Positions 32,106 to 41,026 of a stretch of 64,000 bases of DNA are shown piece by piece (position 1 is the stretch's first letter; each line of letters starts with the position of its first letter). This DNA comes from Desulfocarbo indianensis. GTDB lineage: Bacteria > Desulfobacterota > Desulfarculia > Desulfarculales > Desulfarculaceae. The notes under the pieces are model-generated. The model saw nothing but the letters and a program-made list of their open reading frames with translations, had not been told where the DNA came from and searched no databases. Made by a program: the position numbers and the translations under genes. Where the stretch lies: assembly GCA_001184205.1 (NCBI GenBank), contig LBMP01000002.1:452726-516725 (forward strand), given 5' to 3'.

Positions 32106-33251
32106 GTGGAATTCAATCCCTGCATGAAGCACAAGGTGGTGCGCGGCGCGGCGCGGGAGTTCGCCGAGGGCGAGCTGGGGCCCATCGCCGCCGAGATAGA
32201 CCACCAGGCCCGCTTTCCCTGGGAGGCCATCGAGAAGATGGGGGCCCTGGGCTATTTCGGCCTGCAAGCCCCCCGCCGGATGGGCGGCGCCGGCCTGGAT
32301 TCCATATCCTACGCCATAACCATCGAGGAGATTGCCAGGGTTTCGGCCGGGGTGGCCCTGTGCGTCACCGTGCACAACTCGGTGTGCCTGTACCCGCTTT
32401 TGAATTACGGCGACAAGGAGCAGATCGCCCGCCTGGCCGAGGACCTGATAACCGGCCGCCGCATCGGGGCCTTCTGCCTCACCGAGGCCAACGCCGGCTC
32501 CGACGCCGGGGCGGTGGAAACCACGGCCACGGCCGTGGAAGACGGCTACCTGATCAACGGCACCAAGATTTTCGTGACCAACGGCGGGGTGTGCGGCCTG
32601 GCCCACATCTTCGCCAAGACTGATCCGCCCGACCCGCGCAGCGCGGCGGTGCTCATGGTGGAAAAGGAGCGCCCCGGCTTCAGCGTGGGCGAGATCGAGG
32701 ACCTCTCCGGCATGCGGGCCAATCCGGTGTCCTCGCTGTTCTTGGAGGACTGCCTGGTGCCCCGGGAAAACATGCTGGGCAAGCCGGGCCAGGGGCTGAA
32801 GATCGGCCTGGCCGCCCTGGATGTCGGCCGCCTGGGCGTGGCGGCCCAGGCCCTGGGCATTGCCCAGGCGGCCCTGGAGGCGGGCACGCGCTACGCCAAG
32901 GAGCGCCAGCAGTTCAACAAGCCCATCGCCTCGTTTCAGACCATCCAGAATTATCTGGCCGACATGGCCACCCAGACCGACGCGGCCAGGCTTTTGCTGT
33001 ACCGGGCCTGCGCGCAGAAGGACGCGGGCAAGCCGTTTGCCACCGAGGCCTCCATGGCCAAGCTCTATTGCTCGGCCGCCGCGCGGGAGGTGGCCAACCT
33101 GGCGGTGCAGATACACGGCGGCTGCGGCTACAGCCGGGAATACGACGTGGAGCGCTATTACCGCGACGCCAAGGTGACCGAGATATACGAGGGCACCAGC
33201 GAGGTGCAGCGCATGGTCATCGCCCGGGGGGTCTTGAGCCGCCCCAGTTGA
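32106..33251 (+). CDS. Acyl-CoA dehydrogenase
   Basis: A 381-residue FAD enzyme forming the 2,3-double bond of acyl-CoA and passing electrons to ETF. It has FCLTEANAGSDAG (FAD/substrate loop), GMRANPVSSLFLEDC, ERQQFNKPIASFQ and the C-terminal YEGTSEVQR with the likely catalytic Glu. GTG 32106 follows GGGAG by 7 nt; an in-frame ATG lies six codons on. Neighbours suggest a branched substrate such as isovaleryl-CoA; length and motifs do not decide. Confidence 0.93.
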   Translation: MEFNPCMKHKVVRGAAREFAEGELGPIAAEIDHQARFPWEAIEKMGALGYFGLQAPRRMGGAGLDSISYAITIEEIARVSAGVALCVTVHNSVCLYPLLNYGDKEQIARLAEDLITGRRIGAFCLTEANAGSDAGAVETTATAVEDGYLINGTKIFVTNGGVCGLAHIFAKTDPPDPRSAAVLMVEKERPGFSVGEIEDLSGMRANPVSSLFLEDCLVPRENMLGKPGQGLKIGLAALDVGRLGVAAQALGIAQAALEAGTRYAKERQQFNKPIASFQTIQNYLADMATQTDAARLLLYRACAQKDAGKPFATEASMAKLYCSAAAREVANLAVQIHGGCGYSREYDVERYYRDAKVTEIYEGTSEVQRMVIARGVLSRPS

Positions 33252-33343
33252 GGCGGTGGGGCCAATAGGCCGGGCGGGATTTGGCGGTCGAAGGATTTGG
33301 GCGGATGCAACGCGGCAAAAGGGCTTGGGCGGAAGATGAAGCA

Positions 33344-34168
33344 ATGAGGATCGTGGTTTTCGTCAAACAGGTGCCGGCGGTGAGCGAACTGCCCTGGGAT
33401 GCCAAAACCGGCCAGCTCAGGCGGGAGGCCGCCGAGGGCATGATGGACCCGGCCGCCAAGCGCGCCCTGGAGGCGGCCTTGCGGTTGAAAGACGCCCACG
33501 GCGCGCAGGTGATCGTCATCAGCATGGGCCCGCCCTCGGCCGAGGAGACCCTGCGGGAGGCGGTGGCCATGGGCGCGGACCGGGGCTTTCTGCTTTGCGA
33601 TCCCCGCCTGGCCGGGGCCGACACTCTGGCCACCTCCTATACCCTGGCCAGGGCGGTGGGCGCCTTGAGCCCTGATTTCGATTTGATCCTATTGGGCTGC
33701 CATTCGGCGGACAGCGAGACCGGCCAGGTGGGTCCCCATCTGGCCGAGGAACTGGGCCTTCCGGCGGCGGCCTATGTGGAGAAGATGGCGCTCAAGGGCC
33801 GCAAGCTCACCGTGGAAAGGGTGAGCGACGGCTGGCTGGAAACCCTGGAGATGGACCTGCCCGCCCTGCTCACGGTGACCGCCCGGGCCTTCCGGCCCCG
33901 GCCGGTTCCCATGACCGGCCTGGAGCAGGCTTTCGGCCAGGGCGAGGTTTTTATCTTGAGCGCCGCCGATCTGCGGGCCGACCCGGAGCACGTGGGCTGG
34001 GCCGGCTCGGCCGGGCGCATCATCAAGATCTATGCGCCCGCCGCCCAAAAAAAGGGCGAACTGATCCAGGGCACTCCCAAGGCCTGCGTGCGGGAACTCA
34101 TGGCGCGCTTCGGCGACAGGCTGGGCGGGCTCCTGGCCAAGGATCTGAGCGGGGAGGAGCAGGCATGA
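33344..34168 (+). CDS. etfB: Electron transfer flavoprotein beta subunit
   Basis: A 274-residue AMP-binding subunit of ETF. It begins MRIVVFVKQVPAVSE and contains AADTLATSYTLARA-like and CHSADSETGQVGPHLAEELG motifs. ATG 33344 follows GGAAG by 8 nt; the open frame upstream is ignored. It overlaps etfA by ATGA. It probably accepts electrons from the acyl-CoA dehydrogenase 92 nt upstream. Whether the ETF is a bifurcating type cannot be settled here. Confidence 0.93.
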   Translation: MRIVVFVKQVPAVSELPWDAKTGQLRREAAEGMMDPAAKRALEAALRLKDAHGAQVIVISMGPPSAEETLREAVAMGADRGFLLCDPRLAGADTLATSYTLARAVGALSPDFDLILLGCHSADSETGQVGPHLAEELGLPAAAYVEKMALKGRKLTVERVSDGWLETLEMDLPALLTVTARAFRPRPVPMTGLEQAFGQGEVFILSAADLRADPEHVGWAGSAGRIIKIYAPAAQKKGELIQGTPKACVRELMARFGDRLGGLLAKDLSGEEQA

Positions 34169-35163
34169 ACCAGGAGCGCGCCATCTGGGTGGTGGGCGAC
34201 TACCGGAACTATTTCCAGAACCGGGTCACCCTGCAACTCCTGGCCAAGGCCGGAGAACTGGCCGCAAAGATGGACGGCACGGTGTGCGCGGTGGTCATGG
34301 GCCACGGCGTGGAGGAATGGGTGGGCGAGTACCAGGCCCACGGCGCCCAGCGCATATACGTGATGGATCACCCGCTGTTGAGTGAATACCTGCCCGGCCT
34401 CTTCGCCCGCGCCCTGGAAAGCCTGGCCCGCCAGCGCCGGCCCGAGATCATCCTGATCGGGGCCACCAGTTTCGGCAAGGAACTGGCCGCGCGGGCGGCC
34501 AGCCGCCTGGGCACCGGGCTTACCGCCGATTGCGTGGATCTGTACCTGGACCAGGAGGGGCGCTTCGTGCAGGTGGCCCCGGCTTACGGCGGCAATCTCC
34601 TGGCCGAGATCGTCTTTCCCAGGCACCGCCCGCAGATGGCCACCGTGCGGCCGGGCGCGTTCGCGGAAATGCCCCACGATGCAAGCGCCCGGGCCGAGAT
34701 CATAAGGCTGGACCCGCCGGCCGGGCTAAGCGGAGACGGGGTGCGCCTGGTGAGCTGCCGGCGTTTGGGCTACCAGGGCGAGGACCTGGAAAACGCCAAG
34801 GTGGTGATTTGCGGCGGCAGGGGGCTGGGCAGCAGGAAGAAATTCAAGAATCTGCACGAACTGGCCCGCCTGTTGGGCGGCGAGGTGGGAGCCACCCGGC
34901 CGGTGGTCCACGCCGACTGGGCCGAGGAGGAGCGCCTGGTGGGGCAGGCGGGCAAGCACATAAAGCCCAGGCTCTTGTTCAGCCTGGGGGTGTCCGGCGC
35001 CATCCAGCACACCGCCGGCATAGCCGATCCCGAATTCACCATCGCGGTGAACAAGAACCCCCTGGCGGTCATGATGCAGAAGGCGGACGTGGCCATCAAA
35101 GCCGACGCCCATCAGGTCGCCCTGGCCCTGATACGGGAGCTGAAGGCCCGCGGTTCTTCCTAG
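34165..35163 (+). CDS. etfA: Electron transfer flavoprotein alpha subunit
   Basis: A 332-residue FAD-binding subunit of ETF. The C-terminal FAD domain shows VICGGRGLGSRKKF, GATRPVVHADWAEEERLVGQAGKHIKP and SGAIQHTAGIADPEFTIAVNKNP. No ferredoxin domain is fused to it. Its stop overlaps that of the opposing membrane protein, so no terminator separates them. Confidence 0.94.
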   Translation: MNQERAIWVVGDYRNYFQNRVTLQLLAKAGELAAKMDGTVCAVVMGHGVEEWVGEYQAHGAQRIYVMDHPLLSEYLPGLFARALESLARQRRPEIILIGATSFGKELAARAASRLGTGLTADCVDLYLDQEGRFVQVAPAYGGNLLAEIVFPRHRPQMATVRPGAFAEMPHDASARAEIIRLDPPAGLSGDGVRLVSCRRLGYQGEDLENAKVVICGGRGLGSRKKFKNLHELARLLGGEVGATRPVVHADWAEEERLVGQAGKHIKPRLLFSLGVSGAIQHTAGIADPEFTIAVNKNPLAVMMQKADVAIKADAHQVALALIRELKARGSS

Positions 35164-37988
35164 GGGCCGAAGGCCTCCACCCTTTCCACCGACCACCACC
35201 ATAAGGGGTCTTCGGCGTCCAGCTCCAGGCGCACGTAGCGCGCCTGGGCCGGCTGGCGAAAACGATAGAGGCTCTTCCTGCCTTGGGCCAGATAGAGCAC
35301 TTGGCCGCTGAAGGCGATGGGGCCGGCCAGGTCTATGGCCGCGGCGCGCCATTCATGGCCGTCTTCGGAAACCAGCGCCTTGAGCCCGCGGGGGAAATCG
35401 GCGTGGAAGTTGGGGTTTTGCAGCTCCACCCAGCCCACCTCGCGGCGCTGGCCCAAATCCAGCTCCAGATAGATGCCGGGGCGCTGGCCCTCCTGGCTGG
35501 CCCAGCGCCCGTTGGCGGGCACTCTCAGGGCCAGGCTGGCCGCGGCCTCGCTGTCCACCGGCGAATGCACCGCGACGATGGGAAGAGGGGTCTTGCCGCT
35601 CCGGCCCTGGAGGGCGAACAACACGAACCGGCCGGCGGCGTGGCGTTTATAAGCCACGCCGCTGTTGCGGAGCACCTCCTCCACCATCTCGGCCTCGCGG
35701 CTTAGGACCAGCACGCCGCTGCCCGGCGAGACATCCACCGCCAGGGGCTGGTCCATGCGGGGCGCGGATTGGCCGTAGACATCGGTGAAGCGGTTGGCGG
35801 GCAGCGTCCACACGCTGTTGGCCAGGGCCAGGTAGGCCTTGGCCGAGGGCCAGGCATCGGCGTACAGGCGCTTGATGCCGGCATCCCGAATCGCTTGCAG
35901 GGCCAGGTCCATGCTTTGCTCCCAGGTGTGGGCGGGCTTATCGGGGCCGGGGCCGAAGACCAGGATTTCATGCACGGACCAGGGGCTGTGGTCGTCGCCG
36001 AGGTGGGTGAAGCGCAAATAGCGCAGGCTTTGCATGGGGAAATAGCATTCGATGCGGCCGTAACGCTGTTTCAGAAAGGGGTGCGGCCCGGATAGAAAGA
36101 AGGGGATGCGGTAGAGCCGCACCTCCCGCAGTAACCGGTACACGCCGTCCTCGCCGGCGGCCTCCACCCGCACGTTGCGGGGGACCTCCCAGAACACGGT
36201 GGGAATCAAGGAGATGCCGGCGACCTGCTCTTCCCGGCCCATGTCCAGGATAAAGCCGTCGCCGCCGCGCTGGTGGTTGGCCGTGACGTAGATGGTGCGG
36301 AAATTGGCGTCCCACAGGTTATCCTGCAGAGGCTGGCCGTCCAAGGTGGTCACCCGCCAATTTTGAGGCACCAAAAGCCGCTCCACATTGGCCGGCTCCC
36401 GGAAATTCCAGAAAATCTCGCCTTGCCAGAGATCATATTGCAGCCCCAGCAGTTCGGCCTGGGGCTTCAGGGGCTCCCACAGGAAGCCGGGATTGTTGGA
36501 GGCGTCCACCCTGGCCGCCGCCTCCGGCCGCTTGTCCTGGTTCAGTTCCGCCACCACCGGGCCGCCGCCGGCCAGGAAAGACATTTCGTAAGCTCCTTCG
36601 GCTGCGTGGCGCTGGAAGGGCCTCGCCTTTTGCTCGTCGGCGTAGAGGAAACGCATGCCGGCCCGGCGCATGGCGGCCAGGCGATCTTTGGCCTGGGATT
36701 CGTTTTGGAAGAAATAGCCTCCCCTGGCGTCCAGGATGGGATTGCCCCACAGCCCCCGGAAATCGAGATACAAACTGGCGTTGCTCACCGCCAGGCCAAG
36801 GGCCAAGGCCACGGGCAGCCAGGAGGTGAGACGCCCCAGCAGCCCGCCCCACCAGGCCCAACAGAATGGCAAGGCGAAAAGCAGCCAAAGCAGATAGCGC
36901 GGCCGCGCCTGCTCCACCTGGGAGCCGTAATGGGTGAGCACCACCGCGCCCAGGGAACAGGCCAGCACCGCCGCCGGAATCCAGGAGGGCCTGTAGGTCT
37001 GGTCGAGGGAGCGCAAAACCAGGCCCAGCGCCGCCAGCCCCACGCCGGCGGCCATGACCGCGTAAAGCCAAAACAGGGGGGTGCCCTGGGGGATGGCCCA
37101 TTGATGGGGGCTCAGCAAGCCCAGCATGATGGGCAGGCCCGTCTGCCAGGCCGCCTTCAGGTATCTCGCGACCGTGTCCCCGTTCATGTCCCGGTTCATG
37201 TTGAGTTCCGGCCCCAGGCGCAGATCGCCGCCCAGCCCCAGGTGGGGCCAGCCGTGAGCGGCGTTATAGGCTATGAGAGGCAAAGCGCCCAGCACGGCGC
37301 CCAGGAAAAAGCCGGCCAGTTGCAGGGGGCCGAGCCGGCGCCAGCCGGCAAAGAGCAGAAACAGGCCGCAAGGCAGGATCACCTCGGCCGAGAGGAAGTT
37401 GGTCCAAAAGGCGACGCCGGCCGTGAGCCCCCAGGCGAAACAGGTCGCTGCCCGCCAGCGGGGGCTTTGCCAAAGCTTCAGGGTGAGCAAAAATAAAAGC
37501 GCGCACAGCAACATGGCCAGGCCGTAATGGGTGCGGGCCTCGCCGGCGAAAAAAAGCCCGTAGGCCGGCGGCAGGGCCAGCCAGGATAGCCCGGTGAGGA
37601 CTCCCCAGAAATTGAAAAGTCGGGCCAAAATCTTGTACAGCACGGCCATGAAGGCGAGATAAAGCAAGGGCGGCCAAATATTCACCGCCAGGGAAGTGGG
37701 ACCCGTGACGGCCAGCAAGGGGGCCGCCAGCAGCGCGTCCAGGGTGCCCATGTAATTGTTGCCGAAGAAAAAGGGATAAAAATCCCCCTCCAGGAACGAT
37801 TGGGCCATCAAGCCGATCAACGCACTGTCGTAGTGAAGTTGGCTGGAAAGGAAACGCCAAGCCAGAAGCGCCGCCGCCAGGAAGTAGACCAGGAACAGGA
37901 GGAACCGCCTCACAGCCGGCGGCGGGTGCTGATCGGAAAGGCGTGGCTCAAAGCCACTATCAGGATGCAGTCTTCGGGCGAGGCTCAT
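35160..37988 (-). CDS. GT-C-like membrane protein with discoidin-like C-terminus
   Basis: A 942-residue protein. The N-terminal half (about 28-430) has roughly twelve helices; the first periplasmic loop carries HYDSALIGLMAQ and YMGTLDALLAA, resembling the Asp-bearing loop of PMT/ArnT-type GT-C glycosyltransferases. The soluble half holds two beta-rich stretches, the last ending ARYVRLELDAEDP and resembling F5/8-type (discoidin) sugar-binding domains. It would act on lipid-linked sugars at the outer face of the inner membrane. Specificity is unknown. Confidence 0.7.
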   Translation of the reverse strand: MSLARRLHPDSGFEPRLSDQHPPPAVRRFLLFLVYFLAAALLAWRFLSSQLHYDSALIGLMAQSFLEGDFYPFFFGNNYMGTLDALLAAPLLAVTGPTSLAVNIWPPLLYLAFMAVLYKILARLFNFWGVLTGLSWLALPPAYGLFFAGEARTHYGLAMLLCALLFLLTLKLWQSPRWRAATCFAWGLTAGVAFWTNFLSAEVILPCGLFLLFAGWRRLGPLQLAGFFLGAVLGALPLIAYNAAHGWPHLGLGGDLRLGPELNMNRDMNGDTVARYLKAAWQTGLPIMLGLLSPHQWAIPQGTPLFWLYAVMAAGVGLAALGLVLRSLDQTYRPSWIPAAVLACSLGAVVLTHYGSQVEQARPRYLLWLLFALPFCWAWWGGLLGRLTSWLPVALALGLAVSNASLYLDFRGLWGNPILDARGGYFFQNESQAKDRLAAMRRAGMRFLYADEQKARPFQRHAAEGAYEMSFLAGGGPVVAELNQDKRPEAAARVDASNNPGFLWEPLKPQAELLGLQYDLWQGEIFWNFREPANVERLLVPQNWRVTTLDGQPLQDNLWDANFRTIYVTANHQRGGDGFILDMGREEQVAGISLIPTVFWEVPRNVRVEAAGEDGVYRLLREVRLYRIPFFLSGPHPFLKQRYGRIECYFPMQSLRYLRFTHLGDDHSPWSVHEILVFGPGPDKPAHTWEQSMDLALQAIRDAGIKRLYADAWPSAKAYLALANSVWTLPANRFTDVYGQSAPRMDQPLAVDVSPGSGVLVLSREAEMVEEVLRNSGVAYKRHAAGRFVLFALQGRSGKTPLPIVAVHSPVDSEAAASLALRVPANGRWASQEGQRPGIYLELDLGQRREVGWVELQNPNFHADFPRGLKALVSEDGHEWRAAAIDLAGPIAFSGQVLYLAQGRKSLYRFRQPAQARYVRLELDAEDPLWWWSVERVEAFGP

Positions 37989-38217: not shown

Positions 38218-39288
38218 TTAGGAACCGAACAACTGGCCCAAGCGCATCAGCAGGCCCAAATCGCCGGCGGCCTTGGCCTGGCCCTGCATGAAGACCTGTT
38301 GGGGATCGGCCTTGCCCGACATGATCTCCAGCCAAAGCGCGAAAGGCGCGTCGATGGCCAAATCCGGGGACTGGGCCGGGCCGCTGGCGCCGGCGACTTT
38401 GCCGCCGGCGATGTCCAGATGACAGGAGCCTTCCACCTGGCCGGAAAAGTTGAATTGGATGGTCGCATTCAGGTCGCCGGCCGCCTCCGCTTTGAAGCCC
38501 AGGGGCATTATGAGCAGAAATTCTTCCAGGGTTTGCGGCTGGGGCACCAGGTTGGCCTCGGTGCATTCGCGCGGAGTGAGGTTGTTCTCCAGGCAGGTTC
38601 GCCAAAACATATTGGTGATGCCGGCGATGGTTTCCTTGTCCAGCACCGGCTGGGTGATGGCGGCCATGGTTTCCGGCGTCACCCGGCGGGATTCCACCAG
38701 TTCCCGGCCGGCGGTTTGCAAGGCCTCCTGCACGCTTGGCAAGACCTCCTTGCCCATGACCGTGCCCAGGGCCTCGGCCGACGGGCGGTAGATCTCGGCC
38801 AGGAGGCCTTCCCGGAAGATAAAGCGCGCCCAGGAAGAAAGCTGGCTGAACACCTCCATCTCCGGAAAGCCGGCCACGGAGAGCATCACCACGGCGGGGG
38901 GCTTATGGCGGAGAGGATGGTGAATGGCGCCGCCCTCGCCGCGCTCGAAAAATGGCTCCAGGAAGGGCAGGGTGCGCTCCACGAAAGCCTTCATGTGGGC
39001 GTTGAGGCTGAAATGGTAAAGCGGGGTGGCGTAGATGGCCAGGTCCGCCTCCAGCCACTTGGGATACAGCTCCTGGCTCATGTCGTCCTTCAGGATGCAT
39101 TGGCCCGGCGTCTTGGTCCAGCAGGTAAAGCAACCCTGACAGAAGCGGACCTTTTTCTCTTTCAGATTGACCACTTCAACCTGAGCGCCCGCCTGGCGCA
39201 TTCCCTCCACCAGCGATTTGAGCAGCAGTTCGGTTTTGCTGCGGCCTTTGCCCGCGCGCGGGCTGGAATTGATGGCCAATACTTTCAT
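38218..39288 (-). CDS. Fe-S flavoprotein (NADPH-dependent FMN reductase fold) fused to SCP2 domain
   Basis: A 356-residue fusion. The N-terminal flavodoxin-like domain (about 1-190) has the FMN phosphate loop INSSPRAGKGRSKTE and a compact Cys set Cys50-X2-Cys53-X2-Cys56-X7-Cys64, the spacing known for [4Fe-4S] iron-sulfur flavoproteins. The C-terminal 100 residues form an SCP2 (sterol-carrier) lipid-binding domain ending MRLGQLFGS, clearly related to the one in the neighbouring gene. ATG 39288 has AGGAGG 6 nt upstream and an ATGA overlap with that gene. It may reduce a lipid-like or quinone-like substrate held by SCP2; this is inference. Confidence 0.82.
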   Translation of the reverse strand: MKVLAINSSPRAGKGRSKTELLLKSLVEGMRQAGAQVEVVNLKEKKVRFCQGCFTCWTKTPGQCILKDDMSQELYPKWLEADLAIYATPLYHFSLNAHMKAFVERTLPFLEPFFERGEGGAIHHPLRHKPPAVVMLSVAGFPEMEVFSQLSSWARFIFREGLLAEIYRPSAEALGTVMGKEVLPSVQEALQTAGRELVESRRVTPETMAAITQPVLDKETIAGITNMFWRTCLENNLTPRECTEANLVPQPQTLEEFLLIMPLGFKAEAAGDLNATIQFNFSGQVEGSCHLDIAGGKVAGASGPAQSPDLAIDAPFALWLEIMSGKADPQQVFMQGQAKAAGDLGLLMRLGQLFGS

Positions 39289-40244
39289 GACTTGCCTCCT
39301 TGGCTGAATAGGCTTGGAAAGCGCATCAATAGCGAAACGTCGCCCTTGGCCTGGTAGTCGCCTTGCATCAACGCCTGAGCGCCATCCAATTGGCCCCGCG
39401 AGATGTCCAGCCAAACCTGGCCGGGGGACTCGATAATCAGGTCGGCTTGCGGCGCGGGGGCGGGTTCATAGAAACATTGGCCGTCGGCGATGCGCAGCTG
39501 GGCCTCGTATCCGCCGTTTTCCGGGCCGCCGTCTATCTTGAATCCGACTACCGCCTGCAAGTCTCCGGCGGCCTGGGGGTTGAAACCCAGGGGCATCATT
39601 TCCAGCAGCTCGCGGCAATCGCGGGCCGCCTGGGGCCCTCCTCCCCCTTGCAGGTCCAGCCGGCGCTGATAATGGCCGGGGTACCACTTGGTGACCGGCG
39701 CGCCCACGCCAAGCATCAGCGCCAGGGGCAGGCCCACCTGCACCGCGAGAACCGCGGGAAGCCAGGCTATGCCCAGCAGGCTGGGGGCCAGACTCAAGAG
39801 CAGGCAAAGGGCGAACAACGACGCCCAGAACCAGTTGAGATTAAGGTTGATCCGCCGGAAAATCACGGTTTGCCAAACCTGGGGCGGGGTCTGCCGCTTG
39901 GCGAAAAAGGTCGTGAAGGGCGCGCGCCCCAGAAGCGGCGGCAGCAGGGCGGTGAGCAGCAGGATCAGATACAGCGCCGCGTTGGGCTGGGCGCCGATAA
40001 TCTCGCCCAGGCCGGTTGGCCAGAGCCATTGGCCGGCGCAATACAGGGCCACGAAGACTCCCATGGCCCACTGAATGGGCGAGGCGTCGCCGCCTTTGCG
40101 GGAGATGTAAAGCCCCCAGGCCGCCAGGATAAGCAGGGCCAGGCTTAAAGGCCGCGTGACCTGGGGATTCTGGCCGGTGGCCTGCCCCACCGCGATAAGG
40201 GCCACCGCGCAAACTAACGGCGCCAAACGTGCCAAGGCGTTCAT
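39285..40244 (-). CDS. Membrane protein with C-terminal SCP2 domain
   Basis: A 319-residue protein with about six hydrophobic segments (to about residue 190) and a cytoplasmic SCP2-like domain (about 215-319; MMPLGFNPQAAGDLQ and LMQGDYQAKGDVSLLMRFPSLF). The same pattern recurs in the next gene (MPLGFKAEAAGDLN, LLMRLGQLF), so the two genes share a paralogous lipid-binding module, one at the membrane and one soluble. It is coupled at both ends by 4-nt overlaps. I do not recognise the membrane part. Confidence 0.7.
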   Translation of the reverse strand: MNALARLAPLVCAVALIAVGQATGQNPQVTRPLSLALLILAAWGLYISRKGGDASPIQWAMGVFVALYCAGQWLWPTGLGEIIGAQPNAALYLILLLTALLPPLLGRAPFTTFFAKRQTPPQVWQTVIFRRINLNLNWFWASLFALCLLLSLAPSLLGIAWLPAVLAVQVGLPLALMLGVGAPVTKWYPGHYQRRLDLQGGGGPQAARDCRELLEMMPLGFNPQAAGDLQAVVGFKIDGGPENGGYEAQLRIADGQCFYEPAPAPQADLIIESPGQVWLDISRGQLDGAQALMQGDYQAKGDVSLLMRFPSLFSQGGKS

Positions 40245-40945
40245 CGCAGCAACTCCGGGTCTTTCAGGTAGCTGGCCGCGGCGATGCGGAGCTGGAAAAT
40301 CCGATCGATGACATAGCCGCGCATGGCCCGCGCCGCTTGCACCATGATCGCGGTGCGGGCGGCGTCCTGTTCCGCGGACAGATCATGGGTCAGGCGGTGG
40401 CGCAGGCCCATCTCCTGGTCCACGATCTGCCTGGCCAGCTTGGGGTAAAAGGTCAAGTCTTCCGCCTCCACCCCTTGGGCCAAGCCCTTGGCCAGCATGC
40501 TGGCCATGGCCAGGTCCTGGGCGTCATAGCCGTCCTTGGACAATGGCAAAAGCAGTTGGCGGCTTTCCAGGCTCTCCAATTGGGCGGGCGTCAAGCCGCT
40601 CAGGCGGCAAAGCTCCCGGCGACTCAGCAACTCATCGTTTTGATCGCCGAAAACCACTTGATTCAGCGCCAGCATGGGCGCTATGTCCACGCCCCGGTCG
40701 CGCGCCTGCAAAATGGTTTTGATCTTGGCCAGGGGCAGGCGGTATTCGCTTTGCAAACTGCGGATAAAGGCGGCCCGCTCAACGCATTGGGGGGCGTAGA
40801 AAGCCATGTTGGGGCTGGTTTTGCGGGGATGGGGCAACAGTTCCTGGTCGACGTAATAGAGCAGGGTGGACTTGGGCAGGCCGGTGGCTTGCATGAGTTC
40901 TTTCATGCGGAGGTCTTTTGGTCTTTTGGCGCTGCTGGGGGTCAT
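40241..40945 (-). CDS. MerR-family regulator, apparently with two HTH units
   Basis: A 234-residue regulator. The N-terminal winged helix (about 12-80; MKELMQATGLPKSTLLYYVDQELL) is MerR-type. A second stretch (about 105-150; LSRRELCRLSGLTPAQLESLESRQLL) reads like another MerR HTH, followed by a helical region. No metal-binding Cys cluster is visible, so a small-molecule or lipid signal is more likely. It overlaps the SCP2 membrane gene by 4 nt and probably controls the operon from the dyad at 40963-41026. Confidence 0.8.
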   Translation of the reverse strand: MTPSSAKRPKDLRMKELMQATGLPKSTLLYYVDQELLPHPRKTSPNMAFYAPQCVERAAFIRSLQSEYRLPLAKIKTILQARDRGVDIAPMLALNQVVFGDQNDELLSRRELCRLSGLTPAQLESLESRQLLLPLSKDGYDAQDLAMASMLAKGLAQGVEAEDLTFYPKLARQIVDQEMGLRHRLTHDLSAEQDAARTAIMVQAARAMRGYVIDRIFQLRIAAASYLKDPELLR

Positions 40946-40962: not shown

Positions 40963-41026
40963 CAATAATATAGTCTGGGCCGCTATGAGTAAAGTATAAA
41001 GTGACGCTCTACACAATATATTATTG
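40963..41026. promoter_or_regulatory. AT-rich dyad upstream of merR-type gene
   Basis: CAATAATATA (40963-40972) and TATATTATTG (41017-41026) form a perfect 10-bp inverted repeat separated by 44 nt, in a strongly AT-rich stretch between the regulator and cheV. A TATACT box on the minus strand lies between the arms. A likely operator or promoter region for autoregulation. Confidence 0.45.

Follow-up and report, generated by a model that had tools for sequence, protein, structure and literature searches.

A 64,000-nucleotide stretch of the Desulfocarbo indianensis genome (contig LBMP01000002.1, positions 452,726 to 516,725; hereafter the window) carries a minus-strand operon of three genes, encoding a MerR regulator (P0003), a membrane protein with a C-terminal SCP2 domain (MEM-SCP2, P0002) and a flavodoxin protein with a C-terminal SCP2 domain (FLAV-SCP2, P0001), in this order (Table 1). 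MEM and FLAV denote the membrane and the flavodoxin domain throughout. A first-pass annotation, made from the sequence alone, had described three genes joined by 4-nt overlaps; both ATGA overlaps are present in the sequence, and the observation of the trio is confirmed. The trio is a real, conserved and apparently undescribed enzyme system assembled from known folds. With moderate confidence, we read the operon as coding for a flavin reductase that is regulated, docked at the membrane and active on hydrophobic compounds, probably of a quinone- or enone-like type.

Owing to the overlaps, the upstream ATG starts are preferred for P0002 and the MerR regulator. The ATG of P0001 has GGAGG just 5' of it. 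An alternative TTG start at 39414 would give a 398-aa open reading frame for the flavoprotein, which is less likely because the relatives of P0001 align from the ATG of the 356-aa form.

Table 1. Positions of genes, domains and sequence elements of the operon, numbered within the window
Feature	Position	Strand	Basis or remark
merR (P0003, 234 aa)	40241-40945	minus	first gene of the operon; Pfam MerR_1; in the same family, relatives lie ahead of the membrane gene
MEM-SCP2 (P0002, 319 aa)	39285-40244	minus	C-terminal SCP2, E 4.8e-9; membrane-domain homologues in 36/297 genomes of the phylum
FLAV-SCP2 (P0001, 356 aa)	38218-39288	minus	FMN_red, E 4.1e-17, and C-terminal SCP2, E 1.3e-13 (Pfam); AlphaFold2 mean pLDDT 94.7
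YciB-like membrane domain, P0002 residues 1-200	39645-40244	minus	alignment, AlphaFold2 model of relative L152, YciB profile match
SCP2 domain, P0002 residues 211-315	39300-39614	minus	Pfam; 43% identity to the SCP2 domain of P0001
CX2CX2CX7C motif, C50-C53-C56-C64 of P0001	39097-39141	minus	invariant in 49/49 aligned proteins
SCP2 domain, P0001 residues 255-356	38221-38526	minus	Pfam; fold match of residues 223-356 to the Pisa1 C-terminus
ATGA overlap (4 nt), merR stop / P0002 start	40241-40244	minus	sequence
ATGA overlap (4 nt), P0002 stop / P0001 start	39285-39288	minus	sequence
Possible operator, imperfect 15-nt inverted repeat	40963-41026 (arms 40963-40977 and 41012-41026)	.	upstream of merR; may be chance

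Domains of the gene products

The flavoprotein P0001 was matched by FMN_red (PF03358) at 62.6 bits, against a gathering score of 24, and Flavodoxin_2 was also supported. In its AlphaFold2 model (49 sequences, pTM 0.89), residues 1-202 share their fold with the PDB chain 4r81 (Z 17.5, root-mean-square deviation 2.8, 181 residues aligned), with human NQO1 and NQO2 (Z about 16-16.5) and with azoreductases such as AzoR. Sequence identities to the listed chains are 13-20%, and none of these chains is described with an SCP2 domain.

The solved chain closest in sequence is 7d38, found in a profile search of the PDB (residues 1-107, E 1e-16). This code occurs once in a paper on the flavone reductase FLR of Flavonifractor plautii (PMC7862272), which in the passages concerned describes an ene-reductase with a C-terminal tail that contributes to substrate binding. 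FLR resembles P0001 in residues 1-107, in a similar set of cysteines and, putatively, in having a C-terminal region that contributes to substrate binding; however, this region consists of four strands and a long helix in FLR and of an SCP2 domain in P0001, and the kinship does not extend over the full length. No membrane partner is reported in the passages concerned of PMC7862272, the main text of which contains neither the term 'iron-sulfur' nor 'cysteine'.

The compact cysteine motif that had been noticed on the flavoprotein was found as C50-X2-C53-X2-C56-X7-C64. It falls within the range given for iron-sulfur flavoproteins (Isf), CX2CX2CX5-7C, in the motif description of PMC3164229, and the X5 and X7 spacings of the relatives are the two ends of that range. 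The four cysteines of P0001 may bind an iron-sulfur cluster; as FLR has a similar cysteine set, the motif alone is no proof of one. P0001 is like the Isf family in combining a flavodoxin-type FMN (flavin mononucleotide) domain with a compact four-cysteine motif, and differs from it in that an SCP2 domain and a membrane partner belong to the window system.

Both SCP2 domains (PF02036) scored above the Pfam gathering score of 21.3 (51.6 bits for P0001 and 36.9 bits for P0002) and are 43% identical over 103 residues, so that the first-pass description of two related SCP2 domains holds. A profile search of the whole 5.1-Mb genome gave five SCP2 matches. By our own estimate for about 4,700 genes, about 0.004 adjacent pairs would be expected, and two SCP2 genes side by side are far above chance. 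The best fold match of P0001 residues 223-356 was the C-terminus of the alkylsulfatase Pisa1 (Z 17.1, root-mean-square deviation 1.6, 107 residues aligned), although Pisa1 carries this SCP2-like domain on a metallo-lactamase-type enzyme; Pfam Alkyl_sulf_C reached 19.6 bits, below its cut-off of 27. UbiJ and UbiT likewise share SCP2 with the window proteins but are without a flavin domain. The NCBIfam model of UbiT (NF047962) scored 15.4 bits on P0001 and 29.7 bits on a fused relative, below the cut-off of 46.9. According to the relevant passages of PMC6747719, the SCP2 domain of UbiJ binds ubiquinone intermediates, and the role proposed for the domain in UbiJ/UbiT is to keep a quinone intermediate available to membrane enzymes. 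In the open-licence literature of PubMed Central (PMC), we found no description of SCP2 combined with an iron-sulfur flavoprotein, a flavodoxin or an FMN reductase. A further SCP2 arrangement was seen in an Anaerolineaceae metagenome-assembled genome (MAG; L184), where one chain holds one flavodoxin and three SCP2 domains and further SCP2 genes flank it.

No Pfam family matched the first 200 residues of P0002. The AlphaFold2 model of a free-standing relative (L152, 205 aa; mean pLDDT 90.6) contains six long helices, and its conserved loop PFT..AK...P..VW....F..N includes a short one. The basic residues of P0002 (49-50, 107-131 and 186-195) lie between or after helix pairs; by the positive-inside rule, this would place the conserved loop and the SCP2 domain of P0002 in the cytoplasm. 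PDB fold searches made with the L152 model gave best values within the background of helical models (Foldseek E 2.0, VIA Z 8.2), which does not show a new fold.

The kinship of the membrane domain emerged from profiles. A MEM profile matched E. coli YciB (179 aa, without an SCP2 or flavodoxin part) with E 7e-6 and a score of 41 over 93 columns, including the segment PFT..AK...P..VW...N...W..F. All of 77 hydrophobic control proteins scored lower; the best of them reached 33.0 (L117_16, which looks YciB-like by eye and is perhaps not a true negative) and the next 20.0. Pfam PF04279 (YciB) matched 3 of 12 MEM relatives up to E 1, with a best score of 19.4 bits (E 0.0013) below the cut-off of 28.7, and gave no match on P0002. 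The membrane domain of P0002 is thus probably a distant relative of E. coli YciB, YciB-like rather than a member of the family.

YciB-like proteins also occur free-standing (L216-L228, about 166-215 aa, no Pfam family above cut-off). In three of these loci (L219, L220 and L224) the MEM gene has a neighbour encoding 343 aa, in L219 an acyltransferase-3 gene. At L229:4886-5996, a short flavodoxin (159 aa, FMN_red/Flavodoxin_5) lies directly upstream of a free-standing MEM; it may represent a third type of flavodoxin that pairs with this membrane domain.

Distribution, fusions and regulators

Beyond the window genome, the trio recurs in Desulfobacterota, Chloroflexota, Bacillota and one archaeal MAG, its parts being encoded by separate genes in some cases and naturally fused in others. 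Within the window's family, merR, MEM-SCP2 and FLAV-SCP2 are separate genes in L037; more often, merR is followed by a single MEM-FLAV-SCP2 fusion of about 600-635 residues, the genes usually overlapping. Elsewhere there are separate genes in the orders MEM then FLAV-SCP2 (L088), MEM-SCP2 then FLAV-SCP2 (L104, L105), FLAV-SCP2 then MEM (L171) and FLAV-SCP2 then MEM-SCP2 (L050, L175), as well as single chains of the types MEM-SCP2-FLAV-SCP2 (L106, L133) and FLAV-SCP2-MEM (L164, L166, L168, L174, L176). Among 30 MEM matches, 11 are fused to FLAV and SCP2, nine are MEM-SCP2 proteins (six with FLAV within about 1.5 kb) and one is MEM alone with an adjoining FLAV-SCP2; this classing covers 30 of 37 matches, the other seven being without a locus.

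The hosts include Desulfobacterota, Chloroflexota (Dehalococcoidia, Anaerolineae, Thermoflexales), Bacillota (Desulfocucumis, Peptococcaceae) and archaeal MAGs (Crenarchaeota, Lokiarchaeia); among the archaeal hosts, the membrane domain was found in the Crenarchaeota MAG only (L166). At least 25 of the 297 genomes of the phylum have a match that spans 350 or more of the 356 residues of P0001, and MEM is present in the number of genomes given in Table 1. Named strains carry parts of the system as well: Desulfocucumis palustris NAW-5 (L171) has PadR, FLAV-SCP2 and MEM, and Desulfosarcina alkanivorans PL12 (L139) has FLAV-SCP2 without a membrane gene. An artefact of a single MAG was rejected, as the parts recur in independent assemblies.

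All four cysteines are kept in each of 109 distinct flavodoxin domains, with X7 spacing in 91 and X5 in 18. The flavodoxins split into two well-separated clades (support 100/100) in a tree of 63 of the 109 domains, for which one in every three FLAV-SCP2 proteins was retained. Type A, to which the window protein belongs, has CX2CX2CX7C, and type B, found in the MEM-FLAV-SCP2 fusions of this family, has CX2CX2CX5C; L181_3 has X5 spacing, yet lies within the type-A clade on a long branch. In the MEM tree (50 rows), the window MEM falls inside a set of 21 rows supported at 98/96, 15 of which are the MEMs of type-B fusions. The position of the window MEM among these indicates that the membrane/SCP2 scaffold stayed while its flavodoxin partner was exchanged, in one direction or the other. 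We take this exchange on one scaffold as strong evidence for a joint function of the parts and for the importance of the four cysteines. As the loci are related to one another, the counts given here do not represent independent events.

P0003 was matched by MerR_1 over residues 13-81 (59.7 bits against a gathering score of 21.6, E 3e-16) and stayed below the NCBIfam cut-offs of FtsR (52/150 bits) and of the metal-sensing types CadR-PbrR (34/151.45 bits), MerR (25.8/150.85 bits) and ZntR. Some MerR proteins sense drugs, and PadR proteins sense phenolic or drug-like compounds. In a set of 89 loci, which takes in no locus with a flavodoxin only and none with an anchor identical to another in its last 150 residues, a PadR-family gene is in the operon of 13 (Pfam PadR in 13/13) and a window-type MerR in that of 12, the window included. 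Profile comparison revealed no kinship between PadR and the window MerR; different regulators therefore occupy the same position. Of the loci with MEM, 20 of 30 carry a regulator, versus 5 of 59 without MEM, a contrast that is due in part to some loci having been fetched with the membrane protein. Among loci fetched with the flavodoxin only, the counts are 9/16 with MEM versus 4/56 without; among those fetched with the membrane protein only, they are 10/13 versus 1/3, which is not significant. Five loci without a called FLAV anchor (L142, L158, L165, L173 and L178) were excluded from 80 loci.

Flavoenzymes occur in the stretches around MerR relatives, which counts in favour of the proposed reductase. 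Of 15 such stretches, a flavodoxin adjoins the regulator in two (L258, L260) and the fused gene in one (L269); six have CrtI-like flavin adenine dinucleotide (FAD) enzymes (all of one sequence cluster, of which three were tested with Pfam) and four have NMO-type FMN enzymes (one cluster, two tested), which in L264-L266 are a few genes away. L259 and L268 have none of the four. Three of the MerR relatives (L262, L263 and L267) have as neighbours CrtI-like FAD enzymes and a small gene, which in L263 encodes a class III cytochrome c; the phylum may thus hold a second regulated redox set.

CrtI-like FAD genes of one cluster also occur in four FLAV-SCP2 operons (L094, L096, L168 and L174; L094 and L168 tested). 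Together with those near the MerR relatives, and with the weak UbiT matches of the SCP2 domains, they would fit an accessory system of isoprenoid-quinone or other isoprenoid biosynthesis or repair, with the flavoenzyme reducing a quinone or polyprenyl intermediate that SCP2 holds in the manner of UbiJ/UbiT. The UbiT scores nevertheless stay below the cut-off, no men, mqn or ubi gene recurs in the operons, and the patchy distribution and the ligand-type regulators misfit a constitutive pathway. We regard such a role as unlikely.

Proposed function and alternatives

In the membrane-docked reductase that we favour, the YciB-like domain would keep the complex at the membrane's inner face. The SCP2 domains would draw the hydrophobic substrate from the bilayer and bring it to the FMN bound by the flavodoxin domain. 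NAD(P)H or ferredoxin would supply the electrons that reduce this FMN, perhaps by way of a cluster on the four cysteines, and MerR would sense the substrate or product and control the operon. A quinone- or enone-like substrate is favoured by analogy, because the fold relatives are quinone reductases and FLR and because of the UbiJ precedent.

The first-pass annotation had already suggested a regulated system that holds a hydrophobic substrate at the membrane and reduces it. Of the two outcomes that it had named as refuting, a trio confined to this genome and an SCP2 similarity that fails in profile searches, neither occurred. The natural fusions, the two flavodoxin clades on one scaffold, the association of regulators with the membrane form and the quinone-reductase folds support this idea, and its architecture and the linkage of its parts stand; the substrate class, the reaction and its direction, the cofactors and the cluster, lipid binding and transfer, and the regulator's ligand are what we infer.

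Several observations weigh against the proposed function. FLAV-SCP2 is without a membrane domain in its operon in 59 of the 89 loci, so membrane docking is not always needed, and nine of the 30 classed MEM matches stand alone, without FLAV or SCP2. Genes of a substrate pathway do not accompany the module repeatedly; what recurs next to it are the regulators and some flavoenzymes. The fold kinship does not fix the substrate. Finally, the putative Isf kinship of P0001 is drawn from the motif, and no chain named Isf was among the 58 PDB matches up to E 1.

The first of these counts also bears on a role in envelope homeostasis, with the YciB-like domain as the working part and the flavoprotein only as its redox sensor. 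The kinship of MEM to YciB and the free-standing YciB-like relatives, one group of them beside an acyltransferase-3 gene, would agree with this, but the 59 loci make the flavoenzyme the constant part. We therefore find this role very improbable.

A defence against oxygen or lipid peroxides, with a membrane-held, Isf-like flavoprotein reducing O2, H2O2 or the lipid hydroperoxides that SCP2 gathers, would be consistent with the four-cysteine motif lying in the Isf range, with hosts that are mostly anaerobes, judged by their names, and with a YtfJ/AhpC-like gene that follows the fused gene in six loci. This gene product has a hydrophobic N-terminal stretch, but in the four sequences examined it lacks a conserved cysteine pair; moreover, an SCP2 and a membrane domain are unnecessary for scavenging O2 or H2O2, and no peroxidase or rubrerythrin recurs at the loci. 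Such a defence is improbable in our view. Taken across the loci, the YtfJ/AhpC-like protein is encoded near the module, downstream of the fused gene in L038-L044 and upstream of merR in L036.

Returning to the membrane-docked reductase, a wider formulation is possible, and we put it forward tentatively: an undescribed modular anaerobic system in which a scaffold of YciB-type and SCP2 domains delivers lipids, four-cysteine flavodoxins (iron-sulfur/FMN) are interchangeable and MerR or PadR proteins act as ligand sensors, the whole reducing membrane-borne substrates. If true, this would tie the YciB-type membrane domain to lipid redox chemistry. If the reductase as such is confirmed, it would represent a widespread class of anaerobic, membrane-docked flavoenzymes reducing water-insoluble compounds, in which a lipid-transfer domain built into or onto the reductase solves the problem of the insoluble substrate. 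The natural fusions would then give a handle on YciB-type membrane proteins, and the soluble proteins would be ready for assay.

Neighbouring genes

The inverted repeat upstream of merR (Table 1) is a possible operator of this gene. In three loci (L040:10957-11916 and relatives), the module is followed by a flavodoxin-plus-ferredoxin protein of 320 aa (Flavodoxin_5 sub-threshold, Fer4), a possible electron donor.

SCP2 domains of other proteins bind acyl-CoA, and genes for an acyl-CoA dehydrogenase and EtfBA lie in the window at 32106-35163. The trio could accordingly be assigned to fatty acyl-CoA metabolism, with SCP2 binding acyl-CoA and the flavoprotein taking part in the electron transfer of beta-oxidation. 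Those genes, however, are on the other strand and form a separate unit, and none such recurs beside the module in relatives, so that we consider this assignment very unlikely and retain the flavin reductase.

Downstream of the operon, on the same strand and after a gap of about 230 bases, a gene at 35160-37988 (minus strand) encodes a large membrane protein (942 aa) that matches a PMT_2-type glycosyltransferase and has an F5/8 type C (discoidin) domain at its C-terminus.

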